DNA from: Paenibacillus sp. OK003
GTDB taxonomy: Bacteria; Bacillota; Bacilli; Paenibacillales; Paenibacillaceae
Assembly (NCBI RefSeq): GCF_900109515.1
Contig: NZ_FOBD01000001.1
Coordinates: 496,001 to 560,000, forward strand
Reading direction: 5' to 3'
DNA: 64,000 bases
The notes under the pieces are model-generated. The model did no database searches and was not told the origin of the DNA. It was given only the letters and a program-made list of their open reading frames with translations. The translations under genes were made by a program, and so were the position numbers. Positions 50,028-51,254 of the stretch are shown in pieces; the first letter of the stretch is position 1, and each line of letters starts with the position of its first letter.

Positions 50028-50056
50028 TTGACACCACCTCACCTGCCATGTAATAT
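50028..50056 (+). promoter_or_regulatory. Strong sigma-A promoter of riboswitch-EamA transcript
   Basis: TTGACA (50028-50033), exact 17-base spacer, TAATAT (50051-50056). Expected start near 50063, about 240 bases ahead of the EamA gene. Confidence 0.85.
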
Positions 50057-50105: not shown

Positions 50106-50180
50106 TCGTATAACCTCGCAGGCCGAAAGTGTACACAGGGCGAGGGTCTCTACGGGAAGCCTATACTTCCTAACTACGAT
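50106..50180 (+). promoter_or_regulatory. Purine-family riboswitch aptamer variant
   Basis: P1 TCGTA (50106-50110)/TACGA (50175-50179); J1/2 TAA; P2 CCTCGC/GCGAGG (50114-50119, 50140-50145) with a 20-nt loop where 7 is normal; J2/3 GTCTCTAC (50146-50153), the canonical core; P3 GGGAAG/CTTCCT with 6-nt loop CCTATA (normally 7); J3/1 AAC with an extra A. The pocket base equivalent to position 74 is C (guanine-like). The core is clearly purine-type, but the loop-loop pair cannot be the standard one. It precedes an EamA exporter. Confidence 0.7.
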
Positions 50181-50222
50181 GCCAGGAATCATTGTATTCC
50201 TTGCTCGTAGTTAGGATTTTTG
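50168..50222 (+). terminator. Riboswitch expression platform: terminator overlapping P1 and J3/1
   Basis: CCTAACTACGA (50169-50179) pairs perfectly with TCGTAGTTAGG (50205-50215), with an inner GGAAT/ATTCC stem, then ATTTTTG. The left arm contains the 3' half of P1 and J3/1, so aptamer folding and termination exclude each other. Ligand binding should therefore switch transcription on. Confidence 0.8.
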
Positions 50223-50300
50223 CATTTGGATGGTGTCTGTGACCTTGGCATAAATCAAACATGCGGACGCATTTTTCGATCATCAGGAGGTTTATCTACA

Positions 50301-51254
50301 ATGAAATATTATCTGTCCGTTCTCGCAGGAGCGATGAGCTATGGCATATTATCCACAATTGTGGTTCTGGCTTACGGCGAAGGGTACAAACTTGGAGAGG
50401 TTGTGGGCACACAGCTGATCACGGGCTTTATCCTGTCCTGGATGCTGGCATTATACTCGAAGTTTAGAATGAAACGGAAATCACAGGCAGATGGAAAACC
50501 ATCAGCAGCTGTAGCAAAAGCATTCCAGAAATTAACGTGGAAGCAGCGTTTGCTGTTAATGGCTGCAGGGACACCGACGGTAATTACGGGTCTTGTCTAT
50601 TATCAGTCTTTGCGGTATATTCCCGCGTCACTAGCCATTATTCTTTTGTTCCAATTTACGTGGATTAGCGTATTGATTCAGGCCGTGAGTAAACGTCAGC
50701 GTCCTGACAAGGTAACATTCCTGACTTTGATTATCCTGTTTGGCGGAACATTGCTGGCAGCAGGTTTCCTGGAACAGGGACTCGGAGAGTTTAACGGCTT
50801 GGGCATAGCGCTTGGCTTAATGGCGGCTGTAAGTTACTCCCTGTTTGTAATGTTCAGTGGTAGAGCGGTTCCATCAGCACATCCGGCTTTTCGCAGTGCA
50901 TGGATGGTGACCGGAGGTCTGGTCTTGCTGTGCATCCTGTTCCCGCCGACGTTCCTGTTTAACGGATTGATTTGGAGCCAGCTGCTTGTCTTCGGATTGT
51001 TGCTTGGCTTCTTCGGAGCTTTTATCCCGCCAGTACTGTTCGCAGTAGGTGTGCCTCATATTGGGGGCGACATGGCCGGAATTCTTGGTGCAGTTGAGCT
51101 CCCAATCGCGGTGCTGCTCTCAGCCATTGTGCTTCACGAGCATGTGAGCCCATTGCAATGGATCGGGGTTATTGTGGTGCTAATTGGTGTAGCGTTGCCA
51201 GAGATCTATAAGTTACGGATGAGACGAAGTCGAAATACACCTATATATTCCTGA
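50301..51254 (+). CDS. EamA family transporter (riboswitch-controlled)
   Basis: 317 residues, ten membrane helices in two EamA repeats: GAMSYGILSTIVVLAYGEG in the first and GLGIALGLMAAVSYSLFVMFSGRA and GGDMAGILGAVELPIAVLLSAIVLHEHVSPLQWIGVIVVLIGV in the second. Members mostly export metabolites, amino acids or nucleobase-like compounds. ATG 50301 has AGGAGG ahead; the frame opens further upstream but inside the leader. Placement behind a ligand-ON purine-type switch suggests export of a purine-like compound when it accumulates. Confidence 0.93.
   Translation: MKYYLSVLAGAMSYGILSTIVVLAYGEGYKLGEVVGTQLITGFILSWMLALYSKFRMKRKSQADGKPSAAVAKAFQKLTWKQRLLLMAAGTPTVITGLVYYQSLRYIPASLAIILLFQFTWISVLIQAVSKRQRPDKVTFLTLIILFGGTLLAAGFLEQGLGEFNGLGIALGLMAAVSYSLFVMFSGRAVPSAHPAFRSAWMVTGGLVLLCILFPPTFLFNGLIWSQLLVFGLLLGFFGAFIPPVLFAVGVPHIGGDMAGILGAVELPIAVLLSAIVLHEHVSPLQWIGVIVVLIGVALPEIYKLRMRRSRNTPIYS

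Follow-up and report, generated by a model that had tools for sequence, protein, structure and literature searches.

The DNA analyzed here is a 64,000-nucleotide stretch of the Paenibacillus sp. OK003 genome (the window), and the features of interest lie on its + strand, where a promoter-like site, an aptamer, a terminator, a Shine-Dalgarno sequence, and the ATG of an EamA gene follow one another in that order. The gene (50301–51254) encodes a 317-aa protein, which matches the Pfam model PF00892 at 76 bits against a cut-off of 28.2, bearing out the EamA transporter proposed in the initial annotation. A sequence search for related proteins of solved structure returned none at E 0.01. Ahead of the gene lie the Shine-Dalgarno sequence (AGGAGG, 50285–50290), a predicted intrinsic terminator (50168–50221), and a purine-type aptamer (50106–50179). 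The promoter-like site, TTGACA-17-TAATAT (50028–50056), matches at 10 of 12 positions and is weak on its own, with one site found against a mean of 1.2 in shuffles; a 10/12 match at most 160 nt 5′ of P1 occurs in 73 of the best 80 orthologous loci, a count made without a control.

Two sets of related loci were used. Searched at the DNA level, 197 related genomes gave 71 with a match; 70 of these were read, and four weak matches among them (L071–L074) precede other genes. The 28 distinct aptamers from the DNA-search loci form alignment A1, with one long-L2 sequence and L071–L074 left out, and the covariance model R1 was built from this alignment. The second set comes from an EamA protein search of named genomes, of which the best 80 of at least 564 relatives were kept; all counts out of 80 refer to these best 80 loci. 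All are from Paenibacillus or Cohnella, apart from two records that carry the name Bacillus sp., and they are not fully independent of R1, since they often come from the same or close species as its sources. R1 finds an aptamer 5′ of the EamA gene in all 80 (67.9–98.9 bits).

Aptamer architecture

The aptamer is a three-stem junction in which P1 pairs TCGTA (50106–50110) with TACGA (50175–50179), P2 pairs CCTCGC (50114–50119) with GCGAGG (50140–50145), and P3 pairs GGGAAG (50154–50159) with CTTCCT (50166–50171). J1/2 (TAA, or UAA in RNA; 50111–50113) holds the equivalent of U22, the 8-nt J2/3 (GTCTCTAC / GUCUCUAC; 50146–50153) holds those of U47 and U51, and J3/1 (AAC; 50172–50174) is composed of an extra base and the equivalents of A73 and C74. 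The two loops are a 20-nt L2 with GG at its 3′ end (50120–50139) and a 6-nt L3 that begins with CC (CCTATA, or CCUAUA; 50160–50165). P1, the three joining segments, and both loops are present as named in the initial annotation.

Across the best 80 loci, U22, U51, and C74 are unchanged. J1/2 reads UAA in 77 loci and UAG in the other 3, and J2/3 is always 8 nt, reading GU, then U (53), C (26), or A (1), then UCUAC. The extra J3/1 base is genuine, and a 3-nt J3/1 recurs in these loci (AAC in 73, AGC in 3, UGC in 2, and AUC and UAC in 1 each). At the junction end of P3, the last pair is A-U, G-U, or G-C in 63 of 68 distinct sequences and non-standard in the other 5, which makes J3/1 3 nt long in most sequences and perhaps 4 in a few. 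L3 starts with CC in 80/80 and measures 6 nt in 76 and 5 nt in 4, and L2 ranges from 6 to 30 nt. When the aptamer alone is folded by energy, all consensus pairs form in 69 of the 80 loci, not in 80. A self-complementary octamer, GTGTACAC, lies in the window at 50129–50136; it is found in L2 of close relatives and is absent from distant members.

The purine assignment made in the initial annotation agrees with the Rfam purine model RF00167, which scores the window aptamer at 37.0 bits (E 1.4e-4 in a 351-base stretch; 37 bits and E 6.5e-4 in a whole-genome search), exactly its curated gathering cut-off of 37 bits. A run at the gathering threshold over the whole window lists nothing, which places the aptamer on the cut-off line. 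The same genome has three other purine aptamers, scoring 80.6, 71.3, and 65.5 bits, which precede purE-like, xpt-like, and NCS2-permease-like genes as read from their translations. Among 20 relatives searched at the gathering threshold, 13 match (37.6–53.2 bits) and 7 fall below, including L157 with its 99% identical EamA gene. A scan of a viral collection for the core pattern gave no match.

Conservation and covariation

In 68 distinct aptamers, 99.3% of the cells pair. Changes on both sides are seen in 5 of 17 pairs (shuffled mean 2.4) and in 41 cells, against a shuffled mean of 13.4 and at most 4 when the partners are slid; because the sequences were aligned to the model itself, the result leans towards the structure. 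The same test on the MAFFT alignment A1 gives 11 cells versus 2.6 shuffled. Further pair types are not striking in number (13 versus 11.8 shuffled, a value reached by 33 of 500 shuffles). The initial annotation had looked to a leader alignment for covarying P1, P2, and P3; this is borne out for P2 and P3 and not for P1, which has four invariant pairs out of five and therefore yields no covariation evidence of its own.

It had also been proposed that the normal kissing loops cannot form, an argument from loop length that does not hold. The extra length of L2 is added 5′ of the GG site, in some orthologs as a small additional hairpin, and L2 is as short as 6 nt in others. GG stands directly 5′ of the P2 3′ strand in 76 of the best 80 loci; in the remaining 4 a single A separates the two, and in 3 of these the A can add one P2 pair. 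CC opens L3 in 80/80. GG and CC, the bases that normally kiss, are therefore kept, and as they are invariant the contact itself is putative. The suggestion of an altered pocket fares no better, as U22, U51, and C74 are present in 80/80 and position 48, a C in the window aptamer, is likewise C or A in higher-scoring purine aptamers of the same genome, with C48 in the NCS2-permease aptamer and A48 in the purE aptamer. A change of ligand is possible, but the pocket bases give no sign of one, and guanine would be the default.

Distribution and association with EamA genes

A search of 392 genomes of the order with R1 gives matches at E 0.01 or better in 338, ordinary purine aptamers included, and the matches listed all reach at least 62.8 bits. 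Across 398 genomes of the phylum, 37 match; five of these score at least 89 bits and belong to the genus or family of the window, and the rest score at most 50.5 bits, indicating that in these samples the high-scoring subtype is confined to the order.

The association also holds from the side of the protein. In an EamA protein search of 32 genomes, the two positive controls were recovered at 100 and 74% identity, and all 30 tested genomes that have no strong R1 match also have no EamA ortholog: nothing exceeds 46% identity, with paralogs at 36–46% in 17 and no match at E 1e-20 in 13. In the reverse direction, 24 of 27 R1 matches of at least 62.8 bits, among the matches listed, are followed by an EamA gene; the 27 comprise two groups, of 7 and 20, the 20 being drawn from the lower-scoring part of the list. 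Two of the exceptions precede an FAD oxidoreductase gene (L100 and L248, almost identical loci from two genomes), and in the third (L097) a transposase-like ORF stands behind an EamA-type aptamer. In three genomes (L027, L041, and L067) the EamA gene looks broken into two ORFs; such cases may reflect decay or sequencing errors.

Gene neighborhoods of the EamA gene differ between groups of the best 80 loci, which leaves the aptamer as its constant companion. We considered operon partners as a clue to the ligand and dropped them, as the 16 largest neighbor clusters are common only within groups of loci and the largest is present in 21/80. From the presence of the aptamer at the best 80 loci, the covariation of P2 and P3, and the lack of an EamA ortholog in the 30 tested genomes without a strong R1 match, we conclude that the match is beyond chance, and on this comparative evidence the purine-type aptamer in the EamA leader is confirmed as real.

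The predicted leader terminator and ON wiring

The predicted terminator of the window pairs 50168–50179 with 50205–50216 (fold −27.8 kcal/mol), is followed by five T (50217–50221), and can form only if P1, J3/1, and the base of P3 give way. A terminator of the same layout is predicted in all of the best 80 leaders, where its left arm takes up the last bases of the P3 3′ strand, all of J3/1 including C74, and much of the P1 3′ strand. The right arm pairs with C74 in 80/80; of the two variable J3/1 bases, one is paired in 80 and the other in 79, the single unpaired case being the AUC locus, and positions 1–5 of the P1 3′ strand pair in 74, 28, 71, 80, and 55 leaders. Because a script selected the register that pairs best ahead of the T run, the high pairing is partly by construction. 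This applies less to the covariation, in which changes in J3/1 are mirrored in the right arm (A-U to G-C in 5, to U-A in 2, and to U-G in 1). A generic terminator scan of the leader, with a loop limit of 8 nt, found none.

Folded from the P3 3′ strand to past the T run, the best 80 leaders have a median energy of −26.75 kcal/mol (range −39.5 to −18.8), compared with a median of −17.3 kcal/mol for the consensus aptamer fold without ligand, and in 80/80 the minimum-energy fold has C74 paired with downstream bases. Termination is therefore the predicted default. As ligand binding needs C74 free in the junction, binding should prevent termination. The ON wiring that the initial annotation had read from a terminator arm containing the 3′ strand of P1 is thus strongly supported by the predicted structures of all 80 leaders and by the covariation of the right arm with J3/1, and from it we infer the ON response itself. 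OFF wiring was ruled out, as the terminator is built from the aptamer's own 3′ side.

In the mechanism that we propose, P1, P2, and P3 would fold first in the nascent leader. When no ligand is present, the emerging 3′ strand would invade the 3′ strand of P1, then J3/1 with C74, and then the base of P3, completing the terminator. A ligand held by C74, U51, and U22 would block this invasion at the junction and let the polymerase pass.

Relation to known guanine-scaffold riboswitches

The EamA-linked form shares with guanine-I (RF00167) the three-stem junction, U22, U51, and C74, the 8-nt J2/3, the GG of L2, and the CC of L3. It differs in a J3/1 that is one base longer, an L2 of 6–30 nt, ON wiring, and the EamA target, and the 6-nt L3 of the window aptamer compares with 7 nt in the purE-type aptamer of the same genome.

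The B. subtilis pbuE adenine riboswitch reads adenine through U74, and PbuE is an MFS pump, from another family than EamA. The EamA form is like pbuE in its ON layout, with a terminator that takes its bases from P1, J3/1, and P3 (predicted in 80/80 of the best loci), and unlike this adenine riboswitch in having C74 instead of U74 (80/80). In PMC7707468, pbuE is described as an ON switch for a purine efflux pump in which strand exchange proceeds through P1, then J3/1, then P3. According to the same paper, the highly stable loop contact of xpt prevents strand exchange, and switching returns once that contact is weakened. By analogy, the short L3 may tune the loop contact for strand exchange, and odd features of this kind need not mean a new ligand.

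Two other leaders with ON-type terminators were observed. One (L153, from about 120) has a U74, adenine-type aptamer before a purine-nucleoside-phosphorylase-like gene; the other (L147:120–230) has a C74 aptamer before an MFS transporter gene and is possibly a second guanine-type exporter switch. Compared with NCBIfam, the L147 pump was not identified as a PbuE homolog, the best models (chloramphenicol-efflux and others) all falling below cut-off.

The family also includes forms near other guanine-scaffold classes; we labelled these loci by class from the description in PMC9295807. According to that paper, U22, U51, and C74 are the guanine contacts, and guanine-II aptamers keep all three despite junction insertions and bind guanine at 8.3 nM or better. 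Guanine-II is like the EamA form in occurring in Paenibacillus, in ON wiring, in the kept contacts, and in having a junction insertion (PMC9295807). Guanine-II-like aptamers of the same family, which precede phosphoribosyltransferase-domain genes (two confirmed by Pfam), are unlike it in their J2/3 (GUUUCUACA), J3/1 (CCAGGC), and 7-nt L3 (CCGUAAA). Membership in guanine-II is ruled out, as the EamA form has an 8-nt J2/3 and a J3/1 of AAC rather than CCAGGC with a one-base J2/3 insertion; leaving the end pair of P3 open lengthens J2/3 by one base and J3/1 to 4 nt, which is still not CCAGGC. Guanine-II-like aptamers (U51, J3/1 CCAGGC or ACAGGC) also precede Rieske-dioxygenase-like genes in L132–L134, a kind of target that the other loci show with U51G forms.

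Xanthine-II has the same scaffold, is likewise found in Paenibacillus, and is ON; it differs by U51G and a longer J2/3 and J3/1 (PMC9295807; loci L139–L141 and L143–L145). Aptamers with U51G precede allantoinase and dioxygenase-like genes in the family, one allantoinase being confirmed by NCBIfam at 378 against a cut-off of 358. With U51 in all of the best 80 loci, membership of the EamA form in xanthine-II is ruled out.

The 8-oxoguanine riboswitch is an ON switch of the Paenibacillaceae. It is mentioned as a guanine-scaffold variant in PMC9295807. In the same family the 8-oxoguanine deaminase gene behind L128 is confirmed by NCBIfam (598 bits against a cut-off of 532), and the aptamers of L128 and its look-alikes are unlike the EamA form in having a 7-nt J2/3. 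As J2/3 is 8 nt in 80/80 of the best loci, this form is ruled out for the EamA leader, the 7-nt length being our reading of loci before 8-oxoguanine deaminase genes and not a published consensus.

A further group precedes genes for uncharacterized FAD-dependent oxidoreductases (L100–L103, L105–L108, L110–L113, L152, and L248), the protein family being read from translations and checked by Pfam for the L106 gene. These aptamers, located near 1501 in L100–L113, have ON-type terminators and are widespread in the order. They are like the EamA form in their ON layout, and L100, L101, L110, and L248 also in P3 (GGAAG/CUUCC), a 6-nt L3, and a J3/1 of AGC; they are unlike it in their gene, in R1 scores of 43.4–62.8 bits (those scored), and mostly in a 7-nt L3 and a J3/1 of GGC. 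In three distant members from the phylum (L088, L093, and L094, near 1501), U51 is kept, J3/1 has extra bases (UGGC, CGGC), and the following genes resemble those for xanthine-dehydrogenase-type subunits.

Probable ligand and transported substrate

We favor the reading that the leader is a guanine-type variant in which guanine binding would lead to read-through into the gene of a predicted EamA exporter of guanine or a close relative, and we assign it a probability of about 0.63; its ligand, ON response, transport direction, and substrate are all ones that we infer. Guanine is favored because U22, U51, and C74 are the guanine contacts and guanine-II binds guanine despite its insertions (PMC9295807). 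Export of a purine by this EamA clade is suggested by the wiring and by two precedents, PbuE and PecM, the latter an efflux pump with an EamA domain, controlled by a xanthine/urate sensor (PMC6391409). Several observations count against the favored reading as a whole: the RF00167 score lies right on the cut-off and 7 of 20 relatives fall under it, the extra J3/1 base adjoins the ligand-pairing C74, the junction pair of P3 is non-standard in 5/68, the terminator register was selected for pairing and position 2 of the P1 3′ strand is paired in it in only 28 of the best 80 loci, the aptamer alone folds fully in 69 of these 80, and aptamers of similar core precede an FAD oxidoreductase gene in 2/27 and a transposase-like ORF in 1/27. 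We know of no purine substrate for the EamA clade of the window gene.

The figure of about 0.63 includes a reading with the same ligand and wiring, and for that reason the confidences given to the alternatives overlap and do not sum to one. This reading holds the element to be a plain guanine-I aptamer that has drifted in its loops and J3/1, so that only target and wiring are unusual; it differs from the favored one in what the structure signifies. Its pocket bases are those of guanine-I and RF00167 matches 13 of 20 relatives at up to 53.2 bits, and we still find it doubtful, as the 3-nt J3/1 and the 5–6-nt L3 are kept in 80/80 while L2 drifts freely, and the window aptamer reaches 37 bits against 65.5–80.6 for the other purine aptamers of its genome.

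An unlikely alternative keeps the ON layout and assigns it another purine (xanthine, 8-oxoguanine, hypoxanthine, or a toxic analogue), with the extra J3/1 base and the short L3 reshaping the pocket and the pump acting as a detoxifier. In its favor, the changed ligand of xanthine-II comes with inserted junction bases (PMC9295807), some EamA-type pumps are controlled by xanthine or urate (PMC6391409), and within the family, relatives of the scaffold are found upstream of an 8-oxoguanine deaminase gene and an allantoinase gene. Against it, the forms at those genes differ in J2/3 or at U51, and U22, U51, and C74 are unchanged in all of the best 80 EamA loci. A bolder version, which we offer as speculation and think improbable, is a further guanine-scaffold class with its own non-guanine purine ligand, switching on an EamA detoxifying exporter in Paenibacillaceae and an FAD oxidoreductase in sister forms; if true, it would give the first substrate named for this EamA clade. 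A plain attenuator that terminates without any ligand is very hard to credit, as the pocket and the covarying stems are kept in 80/80 while L2 drifts freely.

Implications

The fold and the pocket of this element are known; what is conserved here is the combination of J3/1 and L3 changes, ON wiring, and an EamA target. In the openly licensed literature we found no paper on a guanine-type riboswitch with an EamA/DMT transporter in Paenibacillus. The running text of PMC9295807 contains no transport-, export-, efflux-, or permease wording; the genes of 55 guanine-II aptamers are given in its figures and supplement, where an EamA gene may be named.

To our knowledge, the substrates of the EamA family are mostly unknown, and here one clade of the family is tied to purine sensing by an RNA kept across Paenibacillus and Cohnella. 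EamA genes are also found behind orphan ykkC subtype 2d RNAs (PMC7266159), so a substrate solved here would be a lead there, provided that these two groups of transporters are closely related. This RNA may also show how a junction can change for strand-invasion switching while its pocket stays intact. An exporter gene under a guanine-type ON switch would be the counterpart of PbuE under its adenine riboswitch and would imply control of guanine overflow in these bacteria.
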